From a virus, in the IMG/VR virus record IMGVR_UViG_3300045918_000229, positions 1-22,174 of that record: a DNA stretch of 22,174 bases. One strand, 5' to 3'. Each line of letters opens with the position of its first letter. The stretch's first letter is position 1. This document shows positions 1-12,755 of the stretch, piece after piece. The notes beneath the pieces are model-generated. The model was not told the DNA's origin and did no database searches. It saw only the letters and a program-made list of their open reading frames with translations. Position numbers and translations under genes: made by a program.

Positions 1-1993
1 AAGATTGTTCTTCTGGAGTTTCACCTTTAGCTATTGCTTCTCTACGAGCTTGTTGTGAAGAGACACCTTGACCAATTGCAGCAATACCACCAACAGCTAA
101 TACAGCAGGTAACGCTAATCCTGATGCAGCAGCACCTAACCCCATACCAGTACGTGCCATTGTGCTAGATATTCTACCACCTATAGCACTAAATGCTGAT
201 GATCCTAATACAGCGGCAACTATACTTGCACCCACTTGAAATAATGCTGATACAATACCTACCGTACTATCATGAAATAATGGAGATAGATGTTGTTCTA
301 TTTGTAGAGCGGTACTCATTATTGAACTGTCAATATTACTTAATTGAGAATTTGTAATTCCTTGTTGAGCAATTTGTTCACGAATTGCCTTTTCTTGAGC
401 ATCTCCTATAGATCTACCTTCAGCAGCAATATTTGAATTGGTTTCGATTAGTTTTAGAACGGTTGGATCTTGAGCAGCCATTGTAACATTGGCAACATTT
501 TCACCAGATGCAAATCCACCAGCTTCCATCTTCTTAATAGCTTCAGTAATCTCTTTAGATTTTTCCATTAAGAATTTCTTTTCAGGATCTGTTTGAGCAA
601 TAGTAGGTTTGGCTATAAGTCTTGAGAATTCTGAACCACCACTAATTCCTAATGCACCCATCATCATTTGAGCTTTCGCACCAGCCTTATATCTACTGAC
701 AGCAGATTGACCTTTTAGCTCAGCTAATGCTTTTGAAGCAGCGATTGTAGATTCGTTTAACTTACCTAATGCAGCTTGATGTGTCATCTCAGCATAGATA
801 GTCTTCATCTTTTCTAAACGATCCTTCTTATCAAGTTTTAATAACTCATTCTTAATTGAAGGATCTGTCATGTAGTCATTTATGTAGCCTTGTATTTCAG
901 AGGCAGATTTACCAGTTATGACAGACATAACTTTCATTTCTCTTGCCATTTCGTCAGTAGCTTGTTGGAATGCTAATCCAGATGTTTGGATACCAGCAGC
1001 TCTTGAATTATTCATAATTTGTAGTAATACTTTATTACCTTCTGCAAATGAACCTGTTAAGTTAGCAAACTCTTTAGCTAAACTTGGAATAGTTTGACCA
1101 GCAGTATTCATGAATTGAGAACCTAAAAATCCTAAAGATTTGTTTAATACTGCTTGACGGTCTGTTAAATCAATAGTAGCATCTTCTTGTAATGCTAATG
1201 AGTTTAATACTTGACGGTTAGCAATATCAACAGCTTGCATATCTTTGGTAGTTAATCCGGTTGCATCTGCTAGTGAAGTCATAGAATTAACTAGACCTGG
1301 TATTACTGTAAATGCTTGTGAACTATGCGCAACAGCTGTTTTGATTTCTTCTAAACGATCAGTAGCAGCTTCTACAACACCAGCGAAACTTCTAAGAATT
1401 CCTCCGACACTAGATATTTCTTTAATATATGTTCTACCAGCATTTGCAATATTATCAACAATAACTGGTAGGTTTGATCGTTGCATTCTTTCAGCATCAC
1501 GAAAATGTTGTTCAGCTTGACTAGTTATAGAACCACTTAAACGGTTTAAATTACTTTGAATTGTAGCACTACCAGATGCAAAGCTTCTACCTAAGTCTTC
1601 AAGTTCTGAATCAACTGCTCCAGTTGTAGTTCGTATAGACTCTAATGCTGTATTATAAGCATCCATAGTGTCTTGTGTAACTCTTCCACTACTTGCAACA
1701 TCTTCTTGAGCTTTACGAGTCGCGGCTGCTAATTTTGCAAACGCTTCAGCTGTTTCATCAGCTTTCTTAATGTTCTTCTCTTGTCGTTTGGTATGAGCAC
1801 CAATGACTCTACCAGAATCATTATAAGCATTGGTTTGATTTGTAAGGGATTTTTTATAAGCATCTAAACTATCTTGGATTTCAGTAAATGTCTTACTACC
1901 GTTTGATAGATTCTTAACAAAGTTTTGCAGCGCTGGTGACATGTTAGCTAGTGAACGGTCAAGATCTGCTTGTTGCTGTGGGGTTAATGCCAT
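1..1993 (-). CDS. Probable tail tape-measure protein, N-terminal part (runs off the window)
   Basis: The frame is open from an ATG at 1993 to the window edge, giving at least 664 codons with no stop. The protein starts MALTPQQQADLDRSL. It is rich in Ala, Gln, Ser and Thr with long helical, coiled-coil-like stretches over roughly residues 1-550. Two Gly/Ala-rich hydrophobic segments follow, near residues 575-605 and 610-645. Long helix plus late hydrophobic patches is the usual make-up of tape-measure proteins, which fix tail length and pass into the cell envelope. The neighbouring divergent gene is a gp26-like tail assembly protein with a frameshift extension, the kind of gene normally found beside the tape measure. 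A TATAAATA late promoter lies upstream on the same strand; the ribosome site is weak (GGA). No homology search was possible, so another large helical virion protein is the alternative. The unusual point is that it is transcribed away from its presumed chaperone. Confidence 0.6.
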   Translation of the reverse strand, partial: MALTPQQQADLDRSLANMSPALQNFVKNLSNGSKTFTEIQDSLDAYKKSLTNQTNAYNDSGRVIGAHTKRQEKNIKKADETAEAFAKLAAATRKAQEDVASSGRVTQDTMDAYNTALESIRTTTGAVDSELEDLGRSFASGSATIQSNLNRLSGSITSQAEQHFRDAERMQRSNLPVIVDNIANAGRTYIKEISSVGGILRSFAGVVEAATDRLEEIKTAVAHSSQAFTVIPGLVNSMTSLADATGLTTKDMQAVDIANRQVLNSLALQEDATIDLTDRQAVLNKSLGFLGSQFMNTAGQTIPSLAKEFANLTGSFAEGNKVLLQIMNNSRAAGIQTSGLAFQQATDEMAREMKVMSVITGKSASEIQGYINDYMTDPSIKNELLKLDKKDRLEKMKTIYAEMTHQAALGKLNESTIAASKALAELKGQSAVSRYKAGAKAQMMMGALGISGGSEFSRLIAKPTIAQTDPEKKFLMEKSKEITEAIKKMEAGGFASGENVANVTMAAQDPTVLKLIETNSNIAAEGRSIGDAQEKAIREQIAQQGITNSQLSNIDSSIMSTALQIEQHLSPLFHDSTVGIVSALFQVGASIVAAVLGSSAFSAIGGRISSTMARTGMGLGAAASGLALPAVLAVGGIAAIGQGVSSQQARREAIAKGETPEEQS

Positions 1994-2093: not shown

Positions 2094-2873
2094 ATGCAAG
2101 AAAATCCACTTTTAAATAAATTAAGACTACCTGGTGAAACATTTAGACTACCATCACAAGGACTATTTTATACTGATGGTGAATTAGCACCTGATGTAAA
2201 AGATGGTGAAGTTCACATTTATCCAATGACAACTATTGATGAAATTGTTATACGTTCACCAGATAAATTATACTCAGGTGAAGCAATTACAGAAGTTTTT
2301 AATCGTTGTATACCACAAATCTTAAAACCGACTGAACTATTTACAAAGGATGTAGATTTCTTAATGGTATGTTTAAGACGATTGTCATATGGGGATAGTT
2401 TATCAGTTAACTATAAACATACTTGTGATAGTGCTAAAACACATGAATATCCTATCAGTATGGATGGATTTATTCGTCAATGTAAGCGTATTGATCCTAC
2501 AACTATTTCATCTAATTACTCAGTAACAATGGATAATGGACAAGTGGTATTGCTTAGACCCTTACGATATGGTGGTTATATTTCAATTATGCAGCAAAAT
2601 ACTAACGCTGATATTCAATCACCAGATGATATGTTAACTCAAATATTAAACACTTTAATTAATGTAATATACCAAGTTGATGATATTACTGATAAGTTTC
2701 AAATTATGGAATGGTTATCTAAGATACCTACTGGTTGGGGTAATAAACTATCAAAAGCAATCGATGGTATGGCTGATTGGGGTATTGATTTCACTATAAA
2801 GACTAAATGTACTGATTGTGATGAGACTGTATCGTTACCAATTCCAGCGAACCCTATAAGTTTTTTCATGTAA
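2094..2873 (+). CDS. 26: gp26-like baseplate hub / tail assembly chaperone
   Basis: A 259-residue protein resembling the T4 gp26 (T4_baseplate) family. Features seen are the N-terminal motif LPGETFRLPSQGLFY, the segment YPMTTIDEIVIRSPDKLYSG, and a C-terminal CTDC pair followed by a beta strand and Phe-Phe. T4 gp26 is a small hub assembly factor; relatives next to tape-measure genes act as tail assembly chaperones. The start is set at ATG 2094 because GGAG (2084-2087) stands 6 bases before it; an in-frame TTG at 2082 has no such site. A late promoter lies upstream. The last codons run over T TTT TTC immediately before ATG-TAA, and a stem-loop follows, so some ribosomes probably shift to the -1 frame (see the 2867-3097 entry). 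Family assignment is from remembered motifs, not a search. Confidence 0.75.
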   Translation: MQENPLLNKLRLPGETFRLPSQGLFYTDGELAPDVKDGEVHIYPMTTIDEIVIRSPDKLYSGEAITEVFNRCIPQILKPTELFTKDVDFLMVCLRRLSYGDSLSVNYKHTCDSAKTHEYPISMDGFIRQCKRIDPTTISSNYSVTMDNGQVVLLRPLRYGGYISIMQQNTNADIQSPDDMLTQILNTLINVIYQVDDITDKFQIMEWLSKIPTGWGNKLSKAIDGMADWGIDFTIKTKCTDCDETVSLPIPANPISFFM

Positions 2874-2908
2874 CGTTGAAGGGTGGTGACGCAAACGCCA
2901 TTCAACGT
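2861..2908 (+). promoter_or_regulatory. Programmed -1 ribosomal frameshift signal
   Basis: The heptamer T_TTT_TTC (2861-2867) is in the correct register (X_XXY_YYZ) for tandem -1 slippage. A 5-nt spacer (ATGTA) follows. Then comes a stem-loop: ACGTTGAA (2873-2880) pairs perfectly with TTCAACGT (2901-2908), continued after one G-A mismatch by GGTG (2882-2885) with CGCC (2896-2899), leaving a 10-nt loop. The zero-frame stop TAA (2871-2873) lies just after the slip site. All three canonical elements have normal spacing. Confidence 0.8.
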
Positions 2909-3097
2909 ATGATGAACCAGTTGCGAACTGAAGCAGAAAATATTATCGAAAGTATTATTGAATTATCCTGGTATATGAGAGGAGGTATTCAATATAAAGA
3001 TATGATGAATATGACACCTGCGGAACGATCTCTTGTTAGACACTTTATAGAAACACGATTAGAGAAAATTAAAGATAGTCCACATCCAGTATATTAG
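2867..3097 (+). CDS. -1 frame extension of the gp26-like protein (GT-like chaperone C-domain)
   Basis: This ORF is in the -1 frame of the preceding gene, open upstream to 2825, and has no credible start of its own. The first candidates are a TTG at 2876 and an ATG at 2909, neither with a Shine-Dalgarno site. Entered by slippage at 2861-2867, translation continues HVTLKGGDANAIQRMMNQLR and adds 76 residues to 258, a 334-residue fusion. The extension is helical and charged, with MTPAERSLVRHFIETRLE near the end. In lambda-like and many myovirus tails, a G protein and a frameshifted GT protein bind the tape measure and recruit tube subunits. The position beside a tape-measure gene fits that role. 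In the T4 hub cluster the comparable second protein would be gp51, but likeness to gp51 is not visible to me. Confidence 0.75.
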   Translation, partial: HVTLKGGDANAIQRMMNQLRTEAENIIESIIELSWYMRGGIQYKDMMNMTPAERSLVRHFIETRLEKIKDSPHPVY

Positions 3098-3153: not shown

Positions 3154-3783
3154 ATGAAACCAGAAAGATTATTAGAATTAGCTGGAGTTAAACCAGTTGA
3201 ACAAGAAGAACAGCTTGATGAAGTATTTAGACCGATTTCTCAAGGACTACGTAAATTAGCTGGTTTAGCTGATAGAATTATTCCTAGGAATAAGCCAGAT
3301 TCAAGATATGGTAGATCAGGGTTAGATGGTGCTGAAGCGTTACAAACTGCAAATAGACAACCATTGAATCTACCATCTAGAAATCCTGCAACTCAGGGTC
3401 CAGGCACTGGTGTGTTTACACCTAAAGATGCAGCTAATAGAGCAGATATTTCAAATTATGTTCGTAGTTGGGCAGCTTCTATTAATAATTCACCACCTCA
3501 ACAAAAAATTGCATTAGCAAAAGAAATTGTAAATTACTTACATGATCGTCAAGGTGATCCACATCTTCAAAATATCATTCCAGGTATTGAACATATTATT
3601 AAAAGAGCAGGTTTAAGAAATTTTGCTCCAGTTGCTATTCAAAAAATACGTAACGGTGAAATGTTTGAAGCATGGTTGTTTAATATTGTTAATACCTTAT
3701 TAGCAGAAAGTAATTTAAATTGGGCTGATATTGGATTAACTTATATTGTAGAAGGTGAGCAAGTTCAAGTAACTCGTTTGTAA
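3154..3783 (+). CDS. Unrecognised late protein, 209 residues
   Basis: The start ATG follows a strong ribosome site, AGGGAG (3142-3147), and a late promoter variant, so expression late in infection is likely. No family is recognised. The protein opens with a short helix MKPERLLELAGVKPVEQEEQ. An Arg-, Pro- and Gly-rich low-complexity stretch follows (about residues 40-95). A helical region then includes SWAASINNSPPQQKIALAKE. It ends in a mixed segment, WADIGLTYIVEGEQVQVTRL. No membrane segment or signal peptide is seen. The modular look and late control would suit a virion or head-core protein, but this is inference. Its 3' end overlaps the convergent helicase gene by 19 bases. Confidence 0.7.
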   Translation: MKPERLLELAGVKPVEQEEQLDEVFRPISQGLRKLAGLADRIIPRNKPDSRYGRSGLDGAEALQTANRQPLNLPSRNPATQGPGTGVFTPKDAANRADISNYVRSWAASINNSPPQQKIALAKEIVNYLHDRQGDPHLQNIIPGIEHIIKRAGLRNFAPVAIQKIRNGEMFEAWLFNIVNTLLAESNLNWADIGLTYIVEGEQVQVTRL

Positions 3784-6422
3784 GCTTCTTTCCACCATTT
3801 CGGAATCATATGGAAGTTTTGGGAATATAGAAATCCAAAACTTCCATCTAATATGTAGACAACACCATGATCAGTAGGTGTTCTTACGACACGACCACCA
3901 CCTTGTATTATGTCAATCAATGTTTGACGTGCATACCAGCTTCCAGACATCTCCATTCTTCGTTTAATCCATTGATCACCTAGATATGGAAATGGTACTT
4001 TAGCGAAGATTGCAAATCGAGCTATGTCATCCTTTAAATCCAATCCTTCTGTTATAGAGGGAGATATCAATATACCTGGTTTAGGTGAATTACAGAATGC
4101 CTTAATAACTGCATTACGATCATCACCACTGTTTGGATTATGATGATATAGATTATGTGATACACCTGCAAGTTCTTTGATCAACCATTCAGATACTGCA
4201 AAACTACTAGTATGAATAATTCCAGATTCCTCTTTATGATCCTCTAGTATTTTCTTTATAGATTTAATATAAGTGTTCCGATGTGGTTTATTTTCATCAT
4301 TTGACCAACTAGCATTCATCTTCATTTTAGCATCAAAATATACTGGCCTGTTTTCAACAGGAAATTCTGATTCCATAGATAAGAAGGCAGCTTCTTTTTG
4401 ATCTATACCTAGATCACTACAAAATCCATCTTTTGATAATATGGTAGAGGACATCAATAAAAATCGATCTGCTTTAGGTACTAGAACATTTTTAAATGAA
4501 AATGCACCATGTAATCTTTTAAATTGAAATTGTGTTTTGTCATGTACTAATACAAATGCGTTTATTATATGGTCAATAGGCCAACTGACAAGATCTTGTA
4601 CTTCATCATAATGAGCTGATACAGATTCAAATTCACGTAGTTTCTGGATGTCATTATTCGACAAGTTACGTCTTTCACTTATCTCTTCACATGTACGTTC
4701 AAGTGCTGCAACATATGTTGCTAGTGCAGGAATATATGTCTCTTTACACCAGTTATGTGCTTGTTCAATATTAGTATGTCGAGTGTATTTGATATCAATC
4801 TTTTTACATCTACCTTCATATATTGCAACAGCATCAAAATTAACTAGATGTTTTTCAGCTGTATGACATTCATCCATGATCATTAATTTACGAGGTTTAA
4901 ACGTAGATGTGAAACTAAACGAAAGCAAAGCGAGAGTGTAGTTTAATACTACGTTCGGATGGGAAGCTGCAAGCTTACGAGCTAACTTATGTGCACATGA
5001 ATCACCACAACCGGGTGCAACTAATGCACCAATATCACATGTTACTGATTTTGATGCACATGGATAATTAGACTTACCATATAATGGTATTACATGATTT
5101 TGTTTAAATTCAGTCTCATACTGAGCTTGTAATATTCTTTGAGGTGTTAATATAAAACTATCACCTCTATCATTACCTGCTAGATATCTAGAATATGTCA
5201 TTCCGATAAGTGATTTACCACTATTATGGGTAACTGTAAAATCCTCCAACAAATACAGATGATCCATATCTAATTCAAATCCATAGTAGTCTCCTATACC
5301 CGTAGATGTGACATTAAATTGAGTTCTTAAGGGATTTTTATTCTTAGATCTACTTTTGAATTTTTTTCTAGGTAGTCTTGTTGGTAGTTCATGTAAATCC
5401 CCTATTATACTAACATTATAATAGGTTGTTGAGTATCTTTTATTTACGAATGAAGTTATAAATGCTGCAAAACCTAGACTTCTACTTATAAATGCTATAT
5501 CATTAGCTAGTTGTATTGATTTACTAGTTATAGTTGCACTCATATTGGTCTCTTGACATACATGACCATCTGTATCTATTATACCTGCAAGTATCTCTAA
5601 TCTATCAATAATAGAAGAAGTTTTATACTCTATAGGTATGAATTTATTACCTGATCTAGTATCATTTAAGTTGTATTGTTTAATTTTCTGCATCACAGGA
5701 TTGATAGCTCTGGTACTTATATCACCACCTCTAGATCCTGTGGTGAGAAAATATGATAAGTTTCTACATTTTAACATTAGATTTTCACTTAACGCATATT
5801 GTTGTAGTTCATTAACTATTTCTATATCAGTGGTACATACGCTAGGAGTACCACTTAAATGTCCATCACCCAAAAATAATCCCATAATATATGGGGGTAT
5901 TTGTAATATATTATGTATATTACTAAATGTAATTCGATTAGATCTGTATAGTTTATGAGTATATTTAAAAGTTTTTGATTTATTAATATAGTCGTTTACA
6001 GATATATTAATAATTTCATTACCCGTACTAGATGGGGTATATTTACCTAATTTAGTACGGACTAAGGATAGTATATGATGTCCATTGACTTGAAATGTAT
6101 TACCTTTTAATGGTTCAATATTAAACATATTATCTTTGCCTGAGAATAGGTTTAATACAGTTCTAGGTAAACTATCAGGACCCATTAGTATATCACCTAC
6201 AACTATATCTTCTACTAACTTTAAAGTTCCATCATACATTAGTATATTAGTACCCGGACTATGACAACCTACAGGTGCTTCCAATATTATATATTTGGCA
6301 TCTTGTTTTTCCATCCATAGCAACGAATCCTCTTGAACTCGACGAATTTGTTTTTCTGGATGTGGCCAATAATCTAATATTGATTTCTTAGTAGATTCGA
6401 TCTTTAGAATTTCTGATGACAT
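3765..6422 (-). CDS. DinG/XPD-type Fe-S helicase interrupted by an intein
   Basis: The 885-residue precursor combines a superfamily 2 helicase with a 348-residue intein (residues 53-400); the spliced helicase would be 537 residues. Walker A is rebuilt as APVG/SGKS (residues 49-52 and 401-404). Four cysteines at 455, 462, 472 and 476 are placed like the Fe-S cluster ligands of XPD/DinG/Rad3 helicases. The DEAD-box position reads DECH (517-520), and motif VI reads QGGGRVVRTP (about 840-849). Such enzymes unwind DNA 5' to 3'; a role in phage replication, repair or recombination is likely. The ATG at 6422 has a weak ribosome site. Two sigma70-type promoters lie within about 100 bases upstream, so early expression is likely. 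It converges on and slightly overlaps the gene at 3154-3783. UvsW-like identity was considered, but the Fe-S cysteines and DECH favour DinG/XPD. Confidence 0.88.
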   Translation of the reverse strand: MSSEILKIESTKKSILDYWPHPEKQIRRVQEDSLLWMEKQDAKYIILEAPVGCHSPGTNILMYDGTLKLVEDIVVGDILMGPDSLPRTVLNLFSGKDNMFNIEPLKGNTFQVNGHHILSLVRTKLGKYTPSSTGNEIINISVNDYINKSKTFKYTHKLYRSNRITFSNIHNILQIPPYIMGLFLGDGHLSGTPSVCTTDIEIVNELQQYALSENLMLKCRNLSYFLTTGSRGGDISTRAINPVMQKIKQYNLNDTRSGNKFIPIEYKTSSIIDRLEILAGIIDTDGHVCQETNMSATITSKSIQLANDIAFISRSLGFAAFITSFVNKRYSTTYYNVSIIGDLHELPTRLPRKKFKSRSKNKNPLRTQFNVTSTGIGDYYGFELDMDHLYLLEDFTVTHNSGKSLIGMTYSRYLAGNDRGDSFILTPQRILQAQYETEFKQNHVIPLYGKSNYPCASKSVTCDIGALVAPGCGDSCAHKLARKLAASHPNVVLNYTLALLSFSFTSTFKPRKLMIMDECHTAEKHLVNFDAVAIYEGRCKKIDIKYTRHTNIEQAHNWCKETYIPALATYVAALERTCEEISERRNLSNNDIQKLREFESVSAHYDEVQDLVSWPIDHIINAFVLVHDKTQFQFKRLHGAFSFKNVLVPKADRFLLMSSTILSKDGFCSDLGIDQKEAAFLSMESEFPVENRPVYFDAKMKMNASWSNDENKPHRNTYIKSIKKILEDHKEESGIIHTSSFAVSEWLIKELAGVSHNLYHHNPNSGDDRNAVIKAFCNSPKPGILISPSITEGLDLKDDIARFAIFAKVPFPYLGDQWIKRRMEMSGSWYARQTLIDIIQGGGRVVRTPTDHGVVYILDGSFGFLYSQNFHMIPKWWKEAYKRVT
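5223..6266 (-). mobile_element. LAGLIDADG intein in the helicase Walker A loop
   Basis: The intein starts at Cys53 with block A CHSPGTNILMYDG...VEDIVVGDILMGPD. It has a block-B-like segment VNGHHIL and two LAGLIDADG-type endonuclease motifs, YIMGLFLGDGHL (about 178-189) and ILAGIIDTDGHV (about 276-287). It ends with YYGFELDMDHLYLLEDF followed by TVTHN, then Ser401 as the first C-extein residue. The nucleophile Cys, the terminal His-Asn and the Ser are all present, so splicing looks intact, and both endonuclease motifs keep their acidic residues. It sits exactly inside the P-loop, so the helicase cannot bind ATP until splicing occurs. The coding frame is continuous on both sides. Confidence 0.92.
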
Positions 6423-10033: not shown

Positions 10034-11097
10034 ATCACTAACCCTTGGTATATATGTACCAGCATATCATTTGAAATCTTCTTAACCTTAATATTTTCAA
10101 GCATGTATACAACTGCTTCATCTAAACTATATGCTTTATTTTCATCTAAAGCAACTTCATCAATTTCAGTATCAGTAACAGCAGCCAAAACATCTTTTGT
10201 TTCAGTTAAATTGATCTCACGAATATTAAAATCAATGGTAACTGATTGTTTTATTTTCATACTATCTTCATATGAGATAGTAATATCAACGATACAATCA
10301 ACTCTGGTTTTATCTGAAGGTTTAAATGTACCAGCTTCTTGAAGATCTAATATTTCAGATAATTTAAGTTTTAAATACTTTGGACAATCCTCCCAATTTT
10401 TATATTGGAGTTTATCAGTATCATAGGTATAGATAGCCATACCACGTTCATTATCACCAGCATCACCATAGTCCATAGGAAATGCGTTACCAATATAATA
10501 TACGTTGTTATTATTCTGACGCTTGTGAAAATGTCCTGAGAATATTCGAGAAGGTCCTTCAAAATCTGTATGTACTGCACCATGAGTAGCAGGTGTACCA
10601 TAACCTGTAACAGCGAAACCTTTAAATTCAAAGTGTCCCCACCAGGTAGCACAATCTGTGAACTTCTTTAAACCATGGAATTCTGATTCGAATATAAATG
10701 GGCATAGTAATGCACCATCACCTAAATTTGGAATGATTGTAGGTTTATCAATCATTGTGAAGTTACTAAATTCTTGAAACGGTACAATTGAATGTATATC
10801 TCTAGAATGACGATAGTATAGATCGTGATTACCAACTACAAAGAAAACTGGTAATCCTAAATCGTTTAACATTTTAGCACCACGATAAGAATAATCTAAA
10901 GTGCTTAAGTTAATAGCGCTACGGTTTTCATTCCAATCACCTAAGAATGCAATTGAATCAATTTCAGGATCTTTTTTAACTTCATCACAGAACCATGTAA
11001 TAAAATCCAAACAATCTTGATTATGTTGATCTGAATTAGACTGACGACCGAAATGTATATCGGTAAACGCAGCAGTCTTGTTTAAGTTTTTTGCCAT
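10030..11097 (-). CDS. 47: gp47-like Mre11/SbcD-type nuclease
   Basis: A 355-residue metallophosphoesterase with the metal-binding motifs in order: DIHFG (Asp13, His15), GDWNENR (Asp54), GNHD (89-92) and GHFH (188-191). T4 gp47 is about the same length. It is the nuclease partner of gp46 in DNA end resection during recombination-dependent replication. The ATG shares one base with the TAA of the upstream homing endonuclease gene (TAATG), and its own stop overlaps the gp46 ATG. The leader shows only a weak ribosome site (AAAGAGA), so coupling to upstream translation may matter. The homing gene has taken the place that in an uninterrupted phage would be the gp55-gp47 junction. Confidence 0.94.
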   Translation of the reverse strand: MAKNLNKTAAFTDIHFGRQSNSDQHNQDCLDFITWFCDEVKKDPEIDSIAFLGDWNENRSAINLSTLDYSYRGAKMLNDLGLPVFFVVGNHDLYYRHSRDIHSIVPFQEFSNFTMIDKPTIIPNLGDGALLCPFIFESEFHGLKKFTDCATWWGHFEFKGFAVTGYGTPATHGAVHTDFEGPSRIFSGHFHKRQNNNNVYYIGNAFPMDYGDAGDNERGMAIYTYDTDKLQYKNWEDCPKYLKLKLSEILDLQEAGTFKPSDKTRVDCIVDITISYEDSMKIKQSVTIDFNIREINLTETKDVLAAVTDTEIDEVALDENKAYSLDEAVVYMLENIKVKKISNDMLVHIYQGLVI

Positions 11098-12755
11098 TAT
11101 ATTATCTCTTTAGTGTAAATAAATTTTGCATGCCCACAATCCCAAATTCTATAATATCCGTTTAACTTCATATTATCCCATTCTGTTAATTTAGTATCAA
11201 AAAAATCTAAAATTTTTGGTAATTTGTGTTTCTGGAATCGCTGTCTGTTCATTAACTGTACATTGTTAGGTTTAAAATAAAAATAACTAGGTCTAGTATA
11301 TTCACATTCAACCATACCTAACGTTGTATATAATTTACCAGTTCCCCACCGTAAATCACAATACGATATTACTGAGACTGGATTATACATATCTTTAAAA
11401 AATTTAAATATTTTACTAGCACCACCAACTACTGTATAATTAGATATAGTTGCATATCTAAGTAATTCATATTCAATACTCTTATTAAACCTAGATTTAC
11501 CAAATGACATACAAGCAACTAAAGTATTATCAGAATCAATTAATCCAACTTGTATTAAAGAATTACAATTACCCTGTATATGATTATCATTAAAGAAAAT
11601 AGAACTAACACTATTTGAAATCTCAATAATACTACATTTTCGAGCATATATCCTATTACTCTTTTGTAATACATTTAATATTCTAGACTTTACAATATTC
11701 TTTTTACAATTCCACTCAGTATCAAATACTTGAATTAGTCTAATACCAAGTTCTTTACACTTAGAATATTTGGTAATATGATATTTTCGATCTTTCCCAT
11801 TATTTTCCGAATGCCAATAAACTCCATTATATTCAATTGCAAGGTTTAATGCAGGTAAGTATATATCTAATTCGTGTGGAGATATAATATTACGTGATCT
11901 GAGCTGAATTTCACCATTATAATTATCTTTAATAAATTGATATAATTCTTTTTCACCATCAGACTGATTAAACAGTAAAGTCTCAATATTAAATCGTTTA
12001 AATCGTTCTGACACCGTACATATACTAACTCCTAACGTATTAGCAATATCTGCTTGAGTATTCAATTCAGTATAATGTTTATCTATCAACCAACTTGAAT
12101 TATTTAAATTTTCTAAATTTTCAATAGAAATATGAGTTTGCTTTGGATGATCTCTATTATACTTTATGTTATTAGCAATTTTAACTTGCTGCTTATATTC
12201 ATCCGTACAGGAATATCTAACTGAACCGTATAAGTTAAAAAAAGATTCATTTATTCGTTGCTTACCAATATCACTACCGGTAAAAGTTTCTGCACCAAAC
12301 TTATTAAAATTTGATAATTTAGTCTTATTTCGAACTGCAGGTAATTGTTGAGTACAAGTAATACTATCACCATATCGAGTTTTTAAAGTTTGTTTAAATC
12401 TTTCTTTACCCACGACACTTTCTGCAGGTGTTTTCGTTCCAAAATTTAATATATTAGTTTGTTGTATTTTTAAAATCTTCTCCGGACTACAAGCACTACA
12501 CTTAGTTGAACAAAACTGTTTATATCCACTACTAGGTCCACCGAATATAACTGGAACAGTATTACACTGCTTACATAACATCACTGTTGTAATATCATTT
12601 ACAATACAATATATTCTCTCTTTTATCTTTGCAGTTTTAGGTAAAAAATTTGTAGCTACTAAAATACTAGCATACAGTTCTGGGTATGATGCCTTTCTAA
12701 TAGGATCAGTACATTCAAATATCTGTTGTTTAATATTAGCTATTGGTAAATTCAT
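11097..12755 (-). CDS. Free-standing Vsr-type (EDxHD) homing endonuclease
   Basis: The 552-residue protein has several DNA-binding modules. A zinc-finger-like set of cysteines lies at 61, 64, 82, 86 and 89. Short repeats with an FG/YG core follow (NFGTKTPAES, RYGDSITCTQ, KFGAETFTGS, LYGSVRYSCT; residues 104-184), as in DUF723-like repeats. A helix-turn-helix lies at TQADIANTLGVSICTVSERF (233-252). The nuclease core is Vsr-like: ELDIYLPALNLAIEYNGVYW (295-314), His315, then a Lys/His-rich helix and LIQVFDTEW (340-348). A C-terminal domain (about 380-545) includes FFNDNHIQGNCNS and DLRWGTGKLY. Such enzymes cut an allele lacking them and spread their own gene. The start ATG lies inside the end of gene 55 and the stop touches the gp47 ATG, so insertion was seamless. 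It is more AT-rich than its neighbours. Confidence 0.85.
   Translation of the reverse strand: MNLPIANIKQQIFECTDPIRKASYPELYASILVATNFLPKTAKIKERIYCIVNDITTVMLCKQCNTVPVIFGGPSSGYKQFCSTKCSACSPEKILKIQQTNILNFGTKTPAESVVGKERFKQTLKTRYGDSITCTQQLPAVRNKTKLSNFNKFGAETFTGSDIGKQRINESFFNLYGSVRYSCTDEYKQQVKIANNIKYNRDHPKQTHISIENLENLNNSSWLIDKHYTELNTQADIANTLGVSICTVSERFKRFNIETLLFNQSDGEKELYQFIKDNYNGEIQLRSRNIISPHELDIYLPALNLAIEYNGVYWHSENNGKDRKYHITKYSKCKELGIRLIQVFDTEWNCKKNIVKSRILNVLQKSNRIYARKCSIIEISNSVSSIFFNDNHIQGNCNSLIQVGLIDSDNTLVACMSFGKSRFNKSIEYELLRYATISNYTVVGGASKIFKFFKDMYNPVSVISYCDLRWGTGKLYTTLGMVECEYTRPSYFYFKPNNVQLMNRQRFQKHKLPKILDFFDTKLTEWDNMKLNGYYRIWDCGHAKFIYTKEII

Follow-up and report, generated by a model that had tools for sequence, protein, structure and literature searches.

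Does a gene of the T4 gp26/gp51 family make two tail assembly chaperones through a programmed −1 frameshift? This question is raised by a locus in an IMG/VR virus record of 22,174 bases, a 22 kb fragment that is called the window below (Table 1). A passage of a 2016 review (PMC5009743) describes the G-T frameshift of tail chaperones as widely conserved 'except T4'. In the window, a gp26-like gene (ORF A) is followed in the −1 frame by an open reading frame (ORF B), and the initial annotation had proposed that the two are joined by slippage on T_TTT_TTC. On the evidence of sequence comparison, we consider it very probable that the gene makes a short and a long chaperone by a −1 ribosomal slip near its end.

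Table 1. Features of the chaperone locus in the window.
Feature	Position	Strand	Basis
Candidate tape-measure protein of the divergent neighbouring gene, 664 aa, incomplete at the window edge	2..1993	−	Matching gene position in relatives
ORF A, putative short chaperone (TAC-N / gpG-like), 259 aa	2094..2873	+	PF12322, T4 gp26/gp51 family
Slippery heptamer T_TTT_TTC, −1 register	2861..2867	+	Read directly from the sequence
ORF B, −1 extension, 76 residues plus stop, predicted TAC-NC / gpGT-like fusion	2867..3097	+	Open across the junction; homologous in relatives
Zero-frame stop TAA of ORF A	2871..2873	+	Read from the sequence
Stem-loop of 12 pairs after a 5-nt spacer, putative stimulator	2873..2908	+	Folding energy against controls

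Results

The locus is of the T4 gp26 type, as the initial annotation had claimed. The match of ORF A to PF12322 (E 1.2e-12) reaches 48.5 bits, above the curated Pfam cut-off of 24.5 bits, and in PHROGs the protein matches phrog_150 ('baseplate hub') at E 1.7e-14. The blastn comparison of phages with the locus gave no match, the PDB sequence search gave no match of note, and Rfam placed no family within the window; when phage proteins served as scan queries, that of XacN1 matched nothing and that of Atu_ph07 matched only itself. The AlphaFold2 model of ORF A has a pLDDT of 89, and its top PDB match is the HK97 tail assembly chaperone 2ob9, with a Foldseek E value of 0.55 that lies below usual significance. 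In VIA-align, the best matches of the model were YqbN (3klu), which we take to be a member of a tail assembly chaperone family, and the HK97 chaperone, with Z scores of 6.1 and 5.4 that are weak, the next being 3.1. Together with the gene arrangement, these fold matches support a gpG/gpGT-like role, and in combination with the homology they point to ORF A and its predicted fusion as a gpG/gpGT-type tail assembly chaperone pair.

A tape-measure gene next to the chaperone gene had also been proposed, and this point is less firm than proposed. In the relatives pEa_SNUABM_47 and RaK2, the gene at the matching position is annotated as tape measure or compared with one. Neither Pfam nor PHROGs recognised the divergent neighbour in the window as a tape-measure protein; the gene is a plausible candidate. 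Just downstream of the locus, the 209-residue open reading frame at 3154-3783 (+ strand) matched nothing in Pfam or PHROGs, nor anything in the flanks of 28 related loci. Elsewhere in the window, a helicase gene (Helicase_C_2; 3765-6422, − strand) contains, close to the N-terminal end, a Hint domain together with a LAGLIDADG-type homing endonuclease, an insert that is probably an intein. A 552-residue DUF7487 protein (11097-12755, − strand), which may be a free-standing homing endonuclease, is encoded directly upstream of a metallophosphoesterase (gp47-like) gene and touches it.

The 3' codons of ORF A, AGT TTT TTC ATG TAA (2859-2873), place the heptamer in the exact X_XXY_YYZ register, with the zero-frame stop one codon past it. 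The proposed lengths were also exact: after a one-base slip, the predicted product would read NPISFF|HVTLKGG across the junction, and the −1 frame stays open to the TAG at 3095-3097, adding 76 residues to 258 (without Met). Among 48 de-duplicated genes of the family, the site is T_TTT_TTC in 37 and T_TTT_TTT in 8; with L035, in which T_TTT_TTC lies one codon earlier (GGT TTT TTC TTC), 46 of the 48 have T_TTT_TTY in register. The two others are Cygsa01 and the divergent relative L009, which has G_TTT_TTT (3915-3921) in the same place.

A conserved Phe-Phe pair alone is not a sufficient explanation for this site, because a T precedes the pair in 46 of the 48 genes, where synonymous usage predicts 50%, and the first Phe is TTT in 46 of 48, against 65% elsewhere. 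The preceding T is found over codons of eight amino acids (Ser, Ala, Thr, Asn, Asp, His, Arg and Tyr). In addition, the distance from the slip site to the end of ORF B is nearly constant (69-80 codons, mostly 76), while the zero-frame stop lies 10, 16, 19, 25, 37 or 40 nt past the heptamer start according to lineage, and 70 nt past it in L035, the most divergent. Therefore, it is the slip site and not the stop that selection keeps. As judged from these alignments, the combination of T_TTT_TTC with a −1 open reading frame is not due to chance.

Wherever the 3' end of a relative is complete, in named phages and metagenomic sequences alike, a related −1 open reading frame is present. In each of the 25 named single-copy phages examined it comes after the gene, in 22 of them with T_TTT_TTY, and the same arrangement is found in 21 of 21 metagenomic relatives and in further metagenomic loci with complete ends. 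Thirteen cultured jumbo phages share it (XacN1, CM1, PA5oct, RaK2, Atu_ph07, Phosso, pEa_SNUABM_47, 121Q, Munch, Vibrio 2.275.O, CBB, SCTP-2 and Hallingskeid), and a −1 open reading frame also follows T_TTT_TTY in the cyanophages DSL-LC02, P-SSM7 and S-RSM4, in Straboviridae outside the T4 branch (Ah1, LPCS28 and PC-Liy1), and in pf16, Bhz51 and OLIVR6. In SFP10 (Ackermannviridae), Vibrio D508 and Cygsa01, the related −1 frame is open and the junction is ATTTTCA or CTTTTCA (L078 near 2240, L077 near 2220 and L040 near 3305, respectively). As these three junctions lack six consecutive T, frameshifting there, if it occurs, would require a different P-site pairing.

ORF B had been proposed to add a downstream domain, and comparison of the relatives shows it to be coding. 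In 13 disjoint sequence pairs, substitutions at −1-frame codon positions 1, 2 and 3 number 203, 125 and 405, and dN/dS is about 0.1-0.25 in the closer pairs; by this pattern, ORF B is evolving as a protein in the −1 frame. Its conserved core is LxWYMRGGxxYxDxMNLSxxER, its product is predicted to form helices (pLDDT 78), and it weakly matches C-terminal positions 254-278 of phrog_150.

The 5-base spacer and 12-bp stem-loop that had been described after the heptamer were recovered as 8 + 4 pairs, arranged as ACGTTGAA-G-GGTG(10 nt)CGCC-A-TTCAACGT, with a folding energy of −14.6 kcal/mol. The mean of 40 synonymous-codon controls encoding the same protein is −1.4 kcal/mol (z −5.5), none of them being as stable, and against dinucleotide shuffles of a 55-base stretch the z score is −3.1 (2 of 200). 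Because stems shift register between aligned relatives, energy tests with synonymous-codon controls replaced a strict count of covariation. For the best hairpin beginning 3-9 bases past the heptamer in 46 loci, stability exceeded that of synonymous-codon controls (mean z −1.7; t-test p 4e-5, a value that exaggerates independence because the loci are related). The window, several jumbo phages and most L013-like loci have a strong stem-loop; in roughly half of the loci it is weak or absent, for example L010-L017 except L013 and L015, and L064/L065. It is therefore not essential in all lineages and is best seen as an optional stimulator. Thus, of the signal expected at the 3' ends of relatives, the heptamer and its register held in 46 of 48 genes, and the stem-loop held overall but not universally.

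T4 has two copies of the family, as has 44RR, whereas every searched phage with the −1 open reading frame, complete genomes included, has one full PF12322/phrog_150 gene. T4 gp26 covers profile positions 10-236 and stops where the slip site lies; T4 gp51 covers 3-281 and continues through that point in frame, and in T4 and 44RR the second copy (gp51) carries the C-terminal part in frame. In DSL-LC02, Ah1, Cygsa01, S-RSM4, P-SSM7 and pf16, the −1 open reading frame matches the missing end of the profile (211-230 to 276-281; E 1e-9 to 0.03). Compared directly, ORF B and the C-terminus of T4 gp51 match only weakly in sequence, the link being made mainly through intermediate phages. By these profile alignments, the two T4 proteins belong to one family, gp26 as its short form and gp51 as its long form. 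In the A-domain tree, the duplicated genes fall among the T4-like rows, and the tree does not separate one shared duplication from several for gp26 and gp51.

What is annotated as gp51 in P-SSM7, S-RSM4 and OLIVR6 is a piece of the −1 open reading frame read from an internal ATG; S-RSM4 and OLIVR6 have it under the name 'baseplate hub assembly catalyst'. These annotations lie inside the −1 extension of gp26 at L073:2301-2396, L074:2265-2399 and L079:2223-2363. The 'gp51' of some cyanophages and of OLIVR6 thus appears to be mis-annotated and not to represent a separate gene.

Discussion

Several other explanations of the junction have to be weighed against ribosomal slippage. ORF B might be a separate small gene with its own start, or be translated by re-initiation after the ORF A stop; public records annotate it in this manner (121Q 595, pEa_SNUABM_47 00244, Munch 275 and cyanophage g51), and in some loci (L006, L029 and L076) an ATG overlaps the stop. 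We nevertheless regard a separate gene as very improbable. The claim that the −1 frame has no usable start was upheld: in the window, no Shine-Dalgarno-like sequence occurs in the 15 bases upstream of the in-frame starts (TTG 2876, ATG 2909/2912 and later ones), no start codon stands at a conserved position before the ORF B core among the relatives compared, and the scanned stretch of PA5oct ORF B contains no ATG, GTG or TTG at all. Moreover, conservation of the −1 reading reaches the junction and extends beyond it, covering the first residues past the slip (RLRLL, YITLK), and a separate gene would have no need of an in-register T_TTT_TTY.

RNA polymerase could also slip on the T run and yield mRNAs of altered length, as the runs of 7-8 T in the closest relatives (L002-L008) might suggest. 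However, such slippage usually needs runs longer than six T, and in the window and most relatives the run stops at six T, where a C follows; this C is retained in 37 of the 48 genes despite breaking the run. As the register, spacing and stem-loop also match ribosomal slippage, we hold an origin in transcription to be highly unlikely. A homopolymer at a junction is, in addition, a classic site of error, and a sequencing error or a recent frameshift mutation could split one gene at such a place; the probability of this is negligible, because the junction is conserved, recurring in dozens of independently assembled genomes, cultured phages included, and ORF B is under purifying selection.

In the −1 ribosomal slippage that we favour, most ribosomes would read ORF A to its stop and produce TAC-N, the short chaperone, which would correspond to lambda gpG. 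A minority would move one base back on T_TTT_TTC, with both Phe tRNAs re-pairing with UUU, and the stem-loop 5 bases downstream would presumably aid this slip. The slipped ribosomes would bypass the stop and append the 76 residues of the predicted helical C-terminal part; the product would be TAC-NC, the counterpart of gpGT. On the lambda model, the short and long proteins may coat the tape-measure protein, the long form may recruit tail tube subunits, and both chaperones would be absent from the finished tail. The proposed G/GT tail-chaperone architecture is supported by the heptamer, its register, the coding nature of ORF B and the lack of a conserved start in relatives.

As T4 and 44RR have two copies and the phages with the −1 open reading frame have one, frameshifting and gene duplication appear to replace each other among these phages. 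It is likely that frameshifting is ancestral and near-universal in the T4 superfamily (here jumbo phages, cyanophages, Ackermannviridae and Straboviridae outside the T4 branch), that the T4/44RR branch duplicated the gene instead, and that the cyanophage 'gp51' is the −1 tail of gp26. T4 is the textbook exception to the tail-chaperone frameshift, as the consulted passage of the review has it (PMC5009743); its distant relatives would follow the rule, and in T4 and 44RR a duplicated gene would stand in for recoding. Duplication versus recoding therefore offers a natural experiment on why phages need the short and the long chaperone in a fixed ratio. The annotation also needs correction, since the annotated jumbo phage and cyanophage records examined give the −1 open reading frame as a separate hypothetical protein or as 'gp51', or omit it.

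The recasting of gp26/gp51 as a G/GT-like pair, with gp51 as the long form, holds and is not new. Vladimirov, Gautam & Davidson (Virology 566:9-15, 2022) identified the chaperone (TAC) genes of T4-like phages, and their title proposes a mechanism other than frameshifting. As cited by PRFect, their work describes some T4-like phages with one short and one long gene, and the Adele paper (PMC12846349) refers to it when describing the slip signals of T4-like TAC genes as poly-T. From the review and these citing papers it follows that this kind of system was already known. The present analysis adds the breadth among jumbo phages, the stem-loop, the contrast between one and two copies and the mis-annotation of cyanophage gp51, parts of which may be contained in Vladimirov et al. 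(2022).

The window gene would share with lambda gpG/gpGT, and with the general TAC frameshift of long-tailed phages, a −1 slip near the 3' end of the chaperone gene that would give a short major and a long minor product. It differs from lambda, in which the slip site is G_GGA_AAG, in its PF12322 family, in its T_TTT_TTC site and in the downstream stem-loop of many members. T4 gp26 and gp51 belong to the same family as the window gene, with gp26 ending at the slip position, but T4 and 44RR encode the two forms as separate genes, whereas phages of the window type would use a frameshift. The TAC genes of Pakpunavirus and Vandenendeviridae, with an invariant GTTTTT, share the poly-T slip signal and the logic of the products; these are other phage families, and the portion of their description consulted (PMC12846349) mentions no stem-loop. 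Compared with these systems, the window gene is, by its sequence features, very probably a conserved and under-annotated case of the known TAC frameshift.
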